NCBI RefSeq assembly: GCF_000423425.1
Contig: NZ_AUHY01000027.1
Location: forward strand, 1-36,383
Source: Meiothermus rufus DSM 22234
GTDB lineage: Bacteria > Deinococcota > Deinococci > Deinococcales > Thermaceae
Length of the DNA stretch: 36,383 bases
Direction of reading: 5' to 3'
Shown: one piece after another, positions 9,303-14,958 of the stretch
How positions within the stretch are numbered: position 1 is the stretch's first letter
How the letters are laid out: the number at the start of each line of letters is the position of its first letter
Notes under the pieces: model-generated
The model's input: the letters and a program-made list of their open reading frames with translations, nothing else
Database searches by the model: none
Told to the model about the DNA's origin: nothing
Position numbers and translations under genes: made by a program

Positions 9303-10202
9303 TTAAGCACCGACCAACCGTTTGGTCTTCAGGATGAGGGGCAGCTCACTCTCCAGGGTTCGCTCGCTTGGGGCAAACACCTGGCGGATGGGGGTAGGGT
9401 CGGCGGTGTTGCCCATCTTGAGCTGGAGGTACTGGTCGCGGGTGAGGGGGCTGAAGGGTAGGGGAGAGATCAAGGGCACCACCCAGTCCATCAGGGCTAG
9501 GGGGATGGACCATAGCGGTTTGCGAGAGCCTAAGACATCGCGCACCAGTAGAATAAGCTCGCGAAAAGTGTACTCTTTGGGCCCTACCAGGTCGTAGCGC
9601 TGGTGGAGGGTGGCTGGGTTGCGCAGGGCCTGTTCAAAGGCCTGGGCCACGTCGCCCACCCAGATGGGACGGAAAACGAAATGCCCATCCCCGATGAGGG
9701 GGATAAAGGGTATAGGGGCAGTGACCAAACCCTTGAGGATGCCTCCGAAGAACTCGTCTCCGGGCCCGAAGATCAGACTGGGGCGCAGGATGGTCCAGTC
9801 CAGCCCAGAGGCCTCGACCAAAGCCTCGCCCTCGGCCTTGGTCTGGTAATAGCGGCTGCCAGTACCGAGGGCCGCCCCCAGGGCCGACATGTGCAGGAAG
9901 CGGCGGATACCCGCCTCTTGCGCGGCGGCCAGGCTGTGGCGCACCCCTTCCACGTGGGCCTGCTGGAAGGTCTGCCCCCTTTTTTCGCGGATGATGCCGA
10001 CCAGGTAGACCAAAGCCTCCTGCCCCTGGGCGGCTTCTAGCAGGCCCTCTCCGGTAGCCACATCGGCCCGCAGGTAGCGCACCTCGGCTAAAGCCCCCTG
10101 GCCCCGCCTCGAGGCCACGCTCACCTGGTGACCCTGGGCCAAAAGATGCTGGGCCAGGTGGGTGCCCACGTAGCCGCTACCGCCAATGAGGAGGATTTTC
10201 AT
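9303..10202 (-). CDS. Atypical SDR / NDUFA9-like NAD(P)-binding protein
   Basis: A 299-residue Rossmann-fold protein. It begins MKILLIGGSGYVGTHLAQHL with the dinucleotide loop GGSGYVG, followed by RADVATGEGL and a YxxxK-like YYQTK near residue 120; DWTILRPSLIFGPGDEF is typical of the complex I NDUFA9/NmrA-like group. The ATG is three bases after the TAA of the upstream ldrP-like gene, so the two are translationally coupled. A role in isoprenoid or quinone metabolism is possible but unproven. It could also be a nucleoside-diphosphate-sugar epimerase relative, though the substrate domain looks shorter. Confidence 0.82.
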   Translation of the reverse strand: MKILLIGGSGYVGTHLAQHLLAQGHQVSVASRRGQGALAEVRYLRADVATGEGLLEAAQGQEALVYLVGIIREKRGQTFQQAHVEGVRHSLAAAQEAGIRRFLHMSALGAALGTGSRYYQTKAEGEALVEASGLDWTILRPSLIFGPGDEFFGGILKGLVTAPIPFIPLIGDGHFVFRPIWVGDVAQAFEQALRNPATLHQRYDLVGPKEYTFRELILLVRDVLGSRKPLWSIPLALMDWVVPLISPLPFSPLTRDQYLQLKMGNTADPTPIRQVFAPSERTLESELPLILKTKRLVGA

Positions 10203-10205
10203 GGG

Positions 10206-10796
10206 TTATACCGCTTGCAGCAGCCGGCTCTCGGCCTCGAGTTCCAGGGCTTTGCGGTCTACCAGGTAGATTTTGCGGTAGCCGGTGTCCAGAAGCCCCT
10301 CGTGCCTGAGGTCGGAGAGCAGCTTGCTGACCGATTCGCGCGTAGAAGCGGTGGCGTCGGCGATCTCCTCGTGGCTGGCGGTCACGTAGACCCCCCGTTC
10401 ATCCTGGCCTTTGGCCGCGGTGGCGGCCAAATAGAGCAGGTAGCGGCAGATGCGGCTGCGCAGCTCGCCCCACTGCAGGTGGGTCTCGTAGGCCTGCACC
10501 TGCACCATCTGGCTGGCCAGGCTACCGGCTAGGGCCCGCATCTCGTCGTGGGTGAGGGCTTTAGGGTCCAGTGCAAAGGCGGCGGCCTCGGTCAGGGCCT
10601 CGGCGGTGTACTTGTACTGCCGTTCGGTAAGGGCCTCCTCGCCGAAGTAGTCGCCGGGCAAAACGTGGCGCAGGGTGAGCTGCCGGCCATCGGGCAGGAT
10701 TTCCACGATCCGCACCAGGCCCCGCTCGAGGCGATAGATGGCTTCGGCGCGGTCGCCTGCCCTGTAAACCACTTCTTTCCTACGCACCTTTTTCAT
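10206..10796 (-). CDS. ldrP: CRP/FNR-family transcriptional regulator, LdrP-like
   Basis: A 196-residue regulator with an N-terminal cyclic-nucleotide-type barrel (about 1-110) and a C-terminal winged helix (about 130-190, HTH ASHEEIADATASTRESVSKL). The phosphate-binding cassette reads GEEALTERQYKYTAEA, where the Arg that CRP uses for cAMP (in RSA) is replaced by Tyr-Thr-Ala. This fits the cAMP-independent LdrP of Thermus thermophilus, which activates crtB downstream of LitR. Its ATG is preceded by AAGGAGG. It follows litR by 52 bases on the same strand and is coupled to the NDUFA9-like gene. The name rests on neighbourhood plus domain features. Confidence 0.82.
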   Translation of the reverse strand: MKKVRRKEVVYRAGDRAEAIYRLERGLVRIVEILPDGRQLTLRHVLPGDYFGEEALTERQYKYTAEALTEAAAFALDPKALTHDEMRALAGSLASQMVQVQAYETHLQWGELRSRICRYLLYLAATAAKGQDERGVYVTASHEEIADATASTRESVSKLLSDLRHEGLLDTGYRKIYLVDRKALELEAESRLLQAV

Positions 10797-10848: not shown

Positions 10849-11730
10849 CTACCATAGACCCGCCTCCTTTAGGGCTACCGAGAGGGATTCGGCCAACTCG
10901 CGCGGGTCGTTACCCAGGTAGCGGGCCCCCAAGCGTTCGACGAGTTGTGGGTTGTGGGCCGCAGCCCGCCCCCCCACCACCACCAAGGGGGCCAGATGCC
11001 GCAGGGCCTGGTGGGGCAAAGACTCCAGGGAAACGGGTTGCGAGGCCGAAAGCACGATAGCCTTGGCTCCGGTGCGTTCAGCGAACGACTGCAGGTCGGC
11101 CAAGGGGGTGTTGGGCCCCAGGTAATGCACGGTGTAGCCAGCCCGTCGCAGGAACAAGGCGGTGATCAGGCTGCCGATCTCGTGCTGCTCACCGGGCAGG
11201 GTGGAGACCACCACTACCGGCCCCAGTACTCCGCCCATCAGGCTCAGCAACCCCTGTAAAGCCCCCCGTAGGTAGGTGCTGGCCAGGTGTTCCTGGGCCG
11301 TGCTGACCCGGCCCAGGTGCCAACCATCTCCGATACGGCGCAGGCAGGGGGCCATGACCTCCAGTACCACCGTTTCCAAAGGGTGCAGCCGGTAGGCCTC
11401 AGAGAGTACCCGGTCGGCGGCCTCGGTATCGGCCCGTAGCAGGGTCTCTTCCAGCGCCCGGGAGAGGGCCTCGGGGGGGCGTGGTCCTTCCTGGGTCAGA
11501 CCCTCAAGGTAGCGTTTGACCGCCTGGGCAGGGGTGATGCCTTCGGCGATCCACTGCTTAATCTGGCGCAGGGCCTCGAGGTCGGTTTGGCTGTACAACC
11601 GGTGTCCGCCCGGCGAACGTTCGGGCCGGGGGAAGCCGTAGCGCCGTTCCCACTGGCGCAGCAGGGCCGAGGACAGGCCAGTGCGTTCCTCGACCTCGGC
11701 GATGGTATAGACCCCCATATCGCTGCGCAT
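10849..11730 (-). CDS. litR: LitR/CarH: MerR-type repressor with adenosylcobalamin light sensor
   Basis: A 293-residue photoreceptor repressor. The N-terminal MerR winged helix (residues 6-75) includes LRQWERRYGFPRPERSPGGH. A four-helix bundle follows, then a B12-binding Rossmann domain. The key CarH residues are all visible: Trp137-His138 (GWH), Glu147-His148 (AQEH) and the lower axial ligand His183 in GEQHEIG. Each is offset by six from Thermus CarH (131/132/141/142/177), which supports the alignment. In the dark, AdoCbl holds the repressor tetramer on DNA; light breaks it. ATG 11730 would be leaderless relative to TACACT (11741-11746). ATG 11718 is an alternative. It is divergent from the methyltransferase-crtB unit. 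Confidence 0.93.
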   Translation of the reverse strand: MRSDMGVYTIAEVEERTGLSSALLRQWERRYGFPRPERSPGGHRLYSQTDLEALRQIKQWIAEGITPAQAVKRYLEGLTQEGPRPPEALSRALEETLLRADTEAADRVLSEAYRLHPLETVVLEVMAPCLRRIGDGWHLGRVSTAQEHLASTYLRGALQGLLSLMGGVLGPVVVVSTLPGEQHEIGSLITALFLRRAGYTVHYLGPNTPLADLQSFAERTGAKAIVLSASQPVSLESLPHQALRHLAPLVVVGGRAAAHNPQLVERLGARYLGNDPRELAESLSVALKEAGLW

Positions 11731-11740
11731 CTTGAAAAGA

Positions 11741-11770
11741 AGTGTAGTATGATTGTATAACTTTTGTCAA
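11741..11770 (-). promoter_or_regulatory. litR promoter
   Basis: On the minus strand, TTGACA (11765-11770) is an exact -35 consensus. TACACT (11741-11746) is a -10 with an 18-base spacer, 10 bases before ATG 11730, so the transcript would be nearly leaderless. The repeats of the putative CarH operator cover both boxes, consistent with autorepression. Confidence 0.65.
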
Positions 11771-11792
11771 GTCTTTTAGAAGACTTTGTATA
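11743..11792. promoter_or_regulatory. Putative LitR/CarH operator: in-register 11-bp repeats
   Basis: Read on the plus strand, TGT occurs at 11743, 11754, 11765 and 11787, i.e. at steps of 11, 11 and 22 bases. The A expected five bases on (from the nTnnACA repeat known for CarH, read in reverse) is present at 11759, 11770 and 11792 but not 11748. The empty register at 11776 keeps only its A (11781). Three contiguous repeats span the litR -35 to -10 region, as in described CarH operators. The repeat spacing is seen directly; binding is inferred. Confidence 0.6.
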
Positions 11793-11794
11793 AG
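11764..11794 (+). promoter_or_regulatory. Divergent promoter for methyltransferase/crtB with a dyad in a 19-base spacer
   Basis: TTGTCA (11764-11769) and TATAAG (11789-11794) each match the consensus at five of six bases but are 19 bases apart. The spacer contains a perfect dyad, AGTCTT-TTAG-AAGACT (11770-11785). A long 19-base spacer holding a dyad is the hallmark of promoters activated by MerR-type proteins. Here it lies beside a MerR-domain gene, so LitR or another MerR regulator might act on it. The start codon is 17 bases downstream of the -10. Confidence 0.45.
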
Positions 11795-11811
11795 TTTAGG
11801 AATCGGTCTAA

Positions 11812-12480
11812 ATGAAAGCCCCCTTTTTCCCCGACCAACGCGTGAAGAAGCCCCTCACCCTGGCGCATTGGGTCAACCTGTGGCCCCTAACCGCCTGGGG
11901 CTACGAGCTATGGCGCTTCAGGGCCCTCAGCCTGCTCTCGGGCCGGCCCTTTCCCCTATCGGAGGAGTTAGCCCGGATGTTACAGGCCATGGAGCCGGTA
12001 GCAGAGAGGGACTTTCTGGACCTGGGTACTTCCACCGGGCTTTATGCCCGGGCCTTGCTAAGGGCTGGGGCCACACGGGTTTGGGCCCTCGATCTCTCCC
12101 CGGCCATGCTGCGGGTGGCCTGGCGCAAGGCCCAGGGCCATCCCAGGTTGGTGCCCTTGCTGGCCCGAGCTGAGGCTATACCCCTAGCTTCGGCCTCGGT
12201 GGATGGGGTAGTGGTGGGGGGAAGCTGGAACGAGTTTCCCCAACCCCAAGAGGTGATCAGGGAGATGCACCGGGTGCTAAGGCCAGGGGGGCGCCTTTGG
12301 ATCATGTTCAGCCACCGCTCGGCCAGTCCGGTGCAGCAGCTTCTGGCTTGGAGCGGTCTTCGCTTTCCCACCCTCGAGACATTGCTGGAATCCCTGTCGA
12401 AAAGTGGGTTCGCCGTGCGCGGCTGGCGGGAAGGAGCGGTAGGATTTGTAACAGGGACAAAAGTCACATCTGGGGTATAA
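11812..12480 (+). CDS. Class I SAM-dependent methyltransferase in the carotenoid locus
   Basis: A 222-residue protein with the Methyltransf_11 pattern: motif I DLGTSTGLYARALL (about 66-79), the acidic ribose-binding residue in ALDLSPAMLRVA, motif II SVDGVVVGGSWNEF, and HRVLRPGGRLWIM. It is the first gene after the litR divergent promoter. Its last bases contain the crtB -10 box, so crtB can be read from the same transcript or from its own promoter. No ribosome site precedes ATG 11812, which lies about 11 bases after the predicted transcript start. The substrate is unknown; a carotenoid or isoprenoid role is only guilt by association. Confidence 0.85.
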   Translation: MKAPFFPDQRVKKPLTLAHWVNLWPLTAWGYELWRFRALSLLSGRPFPLSEELARMLQAMEPVAERDFLDLGTSTGLYARALLRAGATRVWALDLSPAMLRVAWRKAQGHPRLVPLLARAEAIPLASASVDGVVVGGSWNEFPQPQEVIREMHRVLRPGGRLWIMFSHRSASPVQQLLAWSGLRFPTLETLLESLSKSGFAVRGWREGAVGFVTGTKVTSGV

Positions 12481-12518: not shown

Positions 12519-13346
12519 ATGGAACCCAATTGGCAAGCTGTATCGGCTATTATCCGCCGCCACTCCGCCACCTTTTATTACGGTAGCTTGCTCTTCCGGG
12601 GGGAGGCCCGCAAAGGGGCCTGGGCCGTGTATGCGGCTTGCCGCACGGGCGACGACGCGGTGGACGAGTCGGCCCATCCCCAGGCCGACCTCGAGGCGTG
12701 GTGGGCCGGCATCGAGCGGGCCTATGGCGGCGCGCCTAAAAAGAACTGGGAACTAGCCCTAGCCTGGGCTCTGGAGCGTTGGGCAATTCCTCGCCAGGCT
12801 TTTGCCGACATGTACCAGGGCTTCCTTACCGATTTGGGCCCGGTGCGCTTAGAGCGCATGGAGGAGCTGTACACCTACTGCTACCGGGTGGCGGGCACGG
12901 TAGGGCTGATGATTGCCCCCATTGGCGGGGCGGGTTCGCAGGGTCTTGGGGCGGCTGTCAAGCTGGGCCAGGCCATGCAGCTGACCAACTGTCTGCGCGA
13001 TGTAGGTGAGGACCTGGCTCTAGGCCGAGTGTATCTGCCTGCTGAACGGATGCGCTTTTATGGGGTGCGCCTAGAGGATCTACAGGCAGGCCGCGTCACT
13101 TCCGGCTATGTGGCCCTAATGCGCGAGCTAGCCGCAGAGGCCCGCCGGCTCTACCGCGAGGGGCTTTCCGGCCTCAGGTACCTCAGGACTGGGCGGGGGG
13201 CGGTGGCGTTAGCCGCTTTGCAATACCAGGGGATTTTGGACAAACTCGAGCTGAACGGCTGGGATAACCTCTCGTGCCGGGTATCACTCTCGGGCCTCGA
13301 GCGGGTTATACTCCTGCCCAGGGCCTTTTGGCTGCGAGGGGCCTGA
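12519..13346 (+). CDS. crtB: Phytoene synthase
   Basis: Condenses two geranylgeranyl diphosphates to 15-cis-phytoene, the first committed carotenoid step. The 275-residue protein shows both Asp-rich motifs that bind the Mg-diphosphates: DDAVD (residues 45-49, in RTGDDAVDE) and DVGEDLALGR (161-170, in NCLRDVGEDLALGR), then VYLP. RHSATFY near residue 14 is a typical start. ATG 12519 has AAGGAG (12507-12512) at good spacing. It has its own promoter, lies downstream of the LitR-controlled region, and is followed by crtO. In Thermus thermophilus the equivalent gene is activated by LdrP in the light. Confidence 0.95.
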   Translation: MEPNWQAVSAIIRRHSATFYYGSLLFRGEARKGAWAVYAACRTGDDAVDESAHPQADLEAWWAGIERAYGGAPKKNWELALAWALERWAIPRQAFADMYQGFLTDLGPVRLERMEELYTYCYRVAGTVGLMIAPIGGAGSQGLGAAVKLGQAMQLTNCLRDVGEDLALGRVYLPAERMRFYGVRLEDLQAGRVTSGYVALMRELAAEARRLYREGLSGLRYLRTGRGAVALAALQYQGILDKLELNGWDNLSCRVSLSGLERVILLPRAFWLRGA

Positions 13347-13425: not shown

Positions 13426-14958
13426 ATGCCGGATTTTGACGTGGTGGTGGTGGGGGCAGGGCACAACGCCCTGGTGACGGCGGCCTACCTGGCCCAGGCG
13501 GGCTACCGGGTGGGGGTGTTTGAGCGGCGAAAGGTACCGGGGGGTGCGGTTTCCACCATCGATTATGAGGGCTTCCGCTTCGACCTGGGGGGCAGTGCCC
13601 ACATCCTGATCCGCCTGACCCCCATTCCCGAGGAGCTAAAGCTATACGAACATGGTCTAGAGTACATTGAACTCGACCCGCTTTTTCACGCTTCCGATGG
13701 CCAGCAAAGCTGGTTTGTCTGGCGCGACCCCGAGCGCACAGCGGCAGAGCTGGAGGCGCGCTACCCAGGGCAGGGGGCAGCCTACCGCCGCTTCATAGCC
13801 GACTGGTTGCCCTTCGCGCAGGCGGTCAAAGAGGCTTTTCTCAGCTCTCCTAGCCCCCTGAACCTGGGAAAGAAGCTCATCTGGGGAGCGGGCTTCGGGC
13901 GTGACTGGCAGAAGCGGCTGCCCCAGATTCTGCGGCCTTATGGCGATGTGGCCAAAGAGTATTTCAGCGAGGAACGGGTGCGTGCGCCACTGGTGTGGAT
14001 GGCCGCGCAGTCCGGCCCGCCCCCTTCCGATCCGCTTTCCTCTCCCTTTTTGCTCTGGCACCCGCTCTACCACGTGGGCGGAGTGGCCCGGCCCCGGGGG
14101 GGCTCGGGAGGGCTTTCGTTGGCCTTGGTACGGGCCATTGAGGCCGCCGGGGGGAAGGTGCATCTGGACAGCCCTGTCTCGGAGATTATTGTTGCAGACA
14201 ACAAGGCTGTTGGAGTTCGCCTTATGGATGGGCAGAGCGTGAGTGCGCGGGTGGTGGTCTCGGGGGCGCACATCCAGAAAACCCTGGGGATGTTGCCAGC
14301 CGATAAGACACCCGAAGCAGCCAAAGGCTTGCGGGTCGGCAATGGTTTTGGCCTGATTCTTCGGCTGGGTCTTTCGGAGAAGTTGCGTTACCAGACGCAT
14401 CCCGGCGACGAATCGCGTATCGGCCTGGGGCTTCTCATCACCGGTGAGCTACAGCTAAACCGGGCCTATGGCGACTACCTGGCCGGTGAGCCTACCCGCG
14501 ACCCTCCCCTGATTGCCATGAGCTTTACTGCGGTAGACGAGACCCTGGCCCCCCCCGGAGGCGAGACCCTGTGGCTTTGGGCCCAGTACTACCCCTACCG
14601 GCTGGCCTCGGGCACCTGGGAAGCCCGGGCCGCGGAGGCCAAAGAGGGGGTGCTTCGTAGCTTCGAGCGCTTCGACCCTTATATTCGTGGCAAAATTGTG
14701 GCCGAGCTGGTGCAGACACCGCTTTGGCTGGAGCAGGAGTTCGCCATGCCTATGGGCAATGTGATGCACCTGGAGATGAGTCCTGATCAGATGTTCCTCT
14801 TCCGCCCCTGGCTAGGCGCCCATGCCTACAGGTTTCCCGGGGTGAAAGGGCTCTACCTGACCGGGGCCAGCACCCACCCAGGCGGGGGCATTATGGGAGC
14901 CAGCGGGCGCAATGCGGCCCGGGTACTTCTCAGGGATTTGAGCCGGAAGCAGCTCTAA
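13426..14958 (+). CDS. crtO: CrtO-type carotenoid ketolase (FAD-dependent, CrtI superfamily)
   Basis: A 510-residue flavoprotein. It opens with the FAD-binding loop [19 protein letters not shown] and continues with [14 protein letters not shown] and [12 protein letters not shown]. The C-terminal [20 protein letters not shown] is the conserved FAD motif of the superfamily. These strings and the length closely match Deinococcus CrtO (about 511 residues), which adds a 4-keto group to monocyclic carotenoids; CrtI desaturases are less similar in the [10 protein letters not shown] and HILIR regions. It is in the same orientation as crtB but separated by a hairpin and its own -10. The window holds no crtI, crtLm, crtE or hydratase, so those steps must be encoded elsewhere. 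Confidence 0.85.

Follow-up and report, generated by a model that had tools for sequence, protein, structure and literature searches.

The litR gene and a methyltransferase-crtB unit diverge from an 81 bp intergenic region of the window, the whole stretch of 36,383 nucleotides analysed here. This arrangement raises the question of whether the region holds a CarH-type light operator, and whether such an operator would serve the litR promoter alone or both promoters.

Genes around the candidate operator

The features of the neighbourhood, with their coordinates in the window, are:

9303-10202, minus strand: gene 3 of the litR operon, coding for an NDUFA9-like NAD(P)-binding protein, 56% identical to gene 3 of the HB27 carH operon
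10206-10796, minus strand: ldrP, CRP-like regulator of the TTHB099/TT_P0055 family (PDB 3b02, E 6e-73)
10849-11730, minus strand: litR/carH, 293 amino acids, MerR DNA-binding domain and AdoCbl-binding domain
11731-11811: litR/methyltransferase intergenic region, candidate CarH/LitR operator
11812-12480, plus strand: SAM-dependent methyltransferase, divergent (Pfam Methyltransf_11)
12519-13346, plus strand: crtB, phytoene synthase (Pfam SQS_PSY), 66% identical to HB27 crtB
13426-14958, plus strand: crtI-like FAD-dependent oxidoreductase (Pfam Amino_oxidase), named from its position after crtB

CarH proteins carry a Wx9EH motif that caps the adenosyl group, a lower axial histidine, and a Trp-adjacent histidine that is used in the light state (PMC10442372). 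LitR has all of these. Its Wx9EH reads W137-H138...E147-H148 and its axial histidine, H183, lies within GEQH; W137, H138, E147, H148 and H183 correspond to Tt W131, H132, E141, H142 and H177. The protein combines a MerR-type winged helix with a B12 module (Pfam MerR_1, B12-binding_2 and B12-binding). Its best PDB matches are 3whp and the CarH entries 5c8d-5c8f (E about 1e-77 for 3whp and 5c8d, the latter matched over the full length), and it shares 51% identity with the HB27 CarH of T. thermophilus. Judged by sequence, LitR is a full-length CarH orthologue. The close relatives named as carrying LitR are Meiothermus and Calidithermus species, and a literature search found no paper joining Meiothermus and CarH.

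The repeat array

In the dark, AdoCbl tetramers of CarHTt and CarHBm bind 11-bp repeats with the consensus nnnnTnnACAn. The operator of CarHTt has three such repeats, and mixtures of DR and dr units occur elsewhere. Of the CarHTt dimers, one is arranged head-to-tail and spans the 22 bp from DR1 to DR3, holding both, while the other contacts DR2 (PMC9304148).

The plus-strand TGT triplets that the initial annotation listed, together with their steps, can be read directly from the sequence at 11743, 11754, 11765 and 11787. The expected A stands five bases on in three of the four (11759, 11770 and 11792) and is absent at 11748. Read on the litR strand, the region divides into five 11-bp slots in one register from 11792 to 11743:

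11787-11792, minus strand: U1, TATACA, full repeat nearest to the methyltransferase-crtB unit
11776-11781, minus strand: U3 slot, TTCTAA, degenerate with 2 of 4 key bases; the slot of the upstream TGTACA repeat in Thermus carH
11765-11770, minus strand: U4, TTGACA, direct repeat and litR -35 hexamer (conservation, promoter scan)
11754-11759, minus strand: U5, TATACA, 11 bp downstream of U4, inside the -35/-10 spacer
11743-11748, minus strand: slot +22, ACTACA, apparent repeat coinciding with the litR -10 box
11741-11746, minus strand: litR -10 hexamer, TACACT (promoter scan; TAnnnT aligned in relatives)

This register holds 17 of 20 key bases, the top score of all registers on both strands of the 36,383 bases, where the runner-up independent register scores 13. 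When the 81-bp intergenic region was dinucleotide-shuffled 20,000 times, a score of 17 never arose, and three full TnnACA units within five slots came up in 0.03% of shuffles.

Tandem 11-bp nnnnTnnACAn repeats overlapping a -35 or -10 element, as in known CarH operators, are present here as the U4-U5 pair, with U1 in register and U4 forming the -35. Three contiguous full repeats of the CarHTt type are absent: full repeats occupy slots 1, 3 and 4, slot 2 reads TTCTAA, and U4 and U5 are the only adjacent ones. The array of the window can thus be written as DR-dr-DR-DR.

The litR promoter

The promoter scan of the intergenic region returned a single sigma-70-like promoter, TTGACA-18-TACACT. Its -10 bears on the outermost slot. 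In the other 16 Meiothermus species the position of slot 11743 is that of the -10 (TAnnnT) and retains 0-1 of the 4 key bases. The -35/-10 spacer is 17 bp in these species and 18 in the window, and the one extra base brings TACACT into the 11-bp register by chance. Because 11743 coincides with the -10 and is not conserved as TnnACA, it is rejected as an operator repeat, and with it falls the three-repeat core 11743-11754-11765 that had been proposed.

Conservation across the Thermaceae

The comparison covered 21 loci: the window, and the DNA upstream of litR from 16 further Meiothermus species and from four other Thermaceae. U4 reads TTGAC[A/G] in all 21, and also in Thermus. U5 keeps TnnACA in all 21 despite being no promoter element. 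The promoters of T. thermophilus HB27 and HB8 carry TGTACA-N5-TTGACA-N5-TATACA in the same place, so that U3, U4 and U5 (TATACA) are intact there. The U3 slot is mostly degenerate across Meiothermus; it has 4 of 4 key bases in one species, and in 10 of 16 Thermus sequences.

A pair TnnACA-N5-TnnACA on the litR strand occurs in 42 of 51 litR upstream regions, where 0.22 would be expected, although these sequences are related and the counts are not independent. By group, the pair is found in 15 of 17 Meiothermus (expected 0.11), in 4 of 4 other Thermaceae (0.01), in 14 of 16 Thermus (0.03), and in 9 of 14 more distant members of the order (0.07).

Orthology, synteny and the cross-species conservation of 11765 and 11754 support the proposal that a CarH-type operator covers the litR promoter, which loses only 11743 as a repeat. 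It is likely that a LitR operator lies at 11731-11811.

A second pair and the probable loss of a repeat

The initial annotation had also extended the site to 11787, and this extension finds good support: a counterpart is kept in 16 of 16 other Meiothermus. In these relatives the unit is normally the first of two repeats, U1 and U2, which form a further pair beside the methyltransferase-crtB promoter. The key bases T, A, C and A of U1 are present in all 16 species, whereas its two n positions vary, with three or four different bases; in U2 the key bases are retained in 14-15/16. The eight key columns of U1 and U2 agree in at least 14 of 16 species and the nine other columns from the U1 T to the end of U2 in at most 11 of 16, a count that slightly favours the pair since the offsets were picked by best score. 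An independent anchor for U1 is the adjoining CCTAAACTT block, conserved in most species.

Through this block the unit at 11787 aligns with U1, and the window lacks U2 or its neighbour. The upstream pair lies at -34 from the -35 in nine species, at -33 in six and at -32 in one, giving a U1-U4 distance of 32, 33 or 34, compared with 22 in the window. In the protein tree the window lineage stands beside a 13-species group with weak support (79/77), and a spacing of 33 is seen in the outgroups. The difference between 33 and 22 equals a single 11-bp unit; therefore the loss of one repeat, from an ancestral state that would resemble these outgroups, is the simplest account of the shorter array.

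An alignment of Thermaceae litR upstream regions had been proposed as a check on the 11-bp phasing. The phasing holds for U4 and U5 in all 21 loci; it does not hold for 11743, which is unconserved, or for the U1-U4 distance, which varies. Because that distance ranges from 32 to 34 in relatives, strict register over the whole array is not required.

Other placements of the second pair were also seen. In Calidithermus, the second TnnACA pair of litR lies on the downstream side of the -10, close to the start codon (at about -19), and takes the place of the upstream pair. Two other Thermaceae carry the upstream pair (-33/-22 slots) on the other strand, with both repeats full (TTTACAAAAATTGAACA).

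The divergent promoter

11797-11802, plus strand: TAGGAA, candidate divergent -10 in the AAGTTTAGGAAT block conserved in most Meiothermus

The first base of this putative -10 lies 10 bp from where U1 starts. The position of the promoter is a tentative one because the promoter scan of the region recognised no -35 for the methyltransferase-crtB unit. Between 11795 and 11812 of the window, the methyltransferase start codon comes about 10 bp past the conserved TTTAGGAAT block, and the transcript may be leaderless; relatives have a longer methyltransferase leader, with a GGAG-like ribosome site in at least one. In most Thermus loci a GACTTTTGTCCCG...ACACT-like block is conserved before crtB, for which no Meiothermus counterpart was recognised. 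It is possibly an activator site.

Searches for further sites

Three tandem TnnACA units were tried as a genome-wide regulon pattern and rejected: in the genus the matches were nearly all TTATCCACA-type clusters, plus one litR promoter. In the window's genome these clusters sit between two large genes, the first resembling dnaA. They resemble DnaA boxes and fit TnnACA-N5-TnnACA, and are a trap for genome-wide CarH scans. The pattern TTGACNNAANNTNNACA gave one non-litR match in the genome, beside a GreA-like gene and lacking a counterpart in other genomes, and it is not put forward as a further LitR target. The site of LdrP/TTHB099 is a TGT-N10-ACA palindrome (PMC7662524); this pattern is absent from the DNA upstream of litR in the window, in 20 relatives and in 16 Thermus sequences.

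Mechanism and alternatives

We infer that in the dark an AdoCbl-LitR tetramer would dock on U1 (11787), U4 (11765) and U5 (11754), and would either pass over the decayed U3 (11776) or make weak contact with it. The tetramer would block RNA polymerase at the litR-ldrP promoter. The same complex would probably hinder the divergent methyltransferase-crtB promoter too, because U1 lies in the putative core of that promoter; the chances that one complex represses both promoters are about even. Light would cleave AdoCbl, the tetramer would fall apart, and both transcription units would be freed. LdrP may further activate crtB.

A wider proposal is more tentative, and rather doubtful as it stands. Meiothermus might have a two-part operator with one pair per promoter, giving a direct light control of pigment genes that is absent in Thermus, and in the window the loss of an 11-bp unit might have fused the two parts into a one-tetramer switch.

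The serious rival to joint repression is that crtB is controlled indirectly, by way of LdrP. LitR on U4 and U5, with a weak U3, would then repress litR-ldrP alone, and U1 would contribute little. In T. thermophilus control of crtB can be indirect, since TT_P0055 (LdrP) is reported to regulate the crtB operon positively, although in-vitro selection work did not find TTHB099 sites near the crtB promoter (PMC7662524). The restriction of the Thermus repeats to the litR side speaks for such an arrangement, as does the want of a tandem partner for U1 in the window lineage. It leaves unexplained why U1 keeps all four key bases in the window and a counterpart in every other Meiothermus, and why the 22 bp from U1 to U4 equal the DR1-DR3 span of one CarHTt dimer. 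On balance this reading is unlikely, though well short of negligible.

Two further explanations dispense with a LitR array altogether. Conservation of TnnACA could reflect promoter elements together with AT-rich coincidence, given that U4 is the -35 and slot 11743 the -10; yet U5 and U1 keep T..ACA without being litR promoter elements, the free positions of U1 vary, and shuffled DNA almost never yields the array, so that this account is barely credible. The other candidate is a perfect inverted repeat with 7-bp arms, AAGTCTT-N4-AAGACTT (11769-11786), which lies between the promoters, overlaps the -35, and could be the operator of another dimeric regulator acting on both. With a single copy in the genome at up to one mismatch, and none seen in the aligned relatives, it was rejected as a regulon motif, and such a role is very improbable.

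Comparison with known operators

Repeat number and spacing are known to vary among CarH operators, but few natural intermediates are available. The 17 Meiothermus species, in which conserved repeats at one orthologous promoter pair are spaced by 22, 32, 33 or 34, are a ready test series. The series is suited to testing how register and repeat loss affect tetramer docking and direct light control of a divergent promoter.

In the B. megaterium operator, as cited in PMC9304148, a promoter is covered by three full repeats together with an imperfect one, like that of the window; the likeness lies in the number of repeats, in another phylum and another gene context.

In Pcrt of Myxococcus xanthus and other Cystobacterineae (DR1-dr2-DR3-DR4-dr5; PMC9304148), the order DR-dr-DR-DR-dr is shared with the window. 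The -35 lies in DR4 there, whereas in the window it occupies the third slot, and the last dr is better read as the -10. Phylum and gene order also differ.

The closest comparison is the carH-crtB region of T. thermophilus (pTT27), which has an orthologous repressor and shares the carH-ldrP-NDUFA9 neighbourhood with divergent crtB. U4, at the -35, and U5 lie in the same places and the same orientation. Thermus has three tandem full repeats, U3-U4-U5, on the litR side only, whereas in the window U3 is degenerate and a full U1 stands one slot nearer the divergent genes. The methyltransferase gene precedes crtB in the window, while phr follows crtB in T. thermophilus. On this comparison of sequences, the site in the window belongs to the known, plastic kind of CarH operator.
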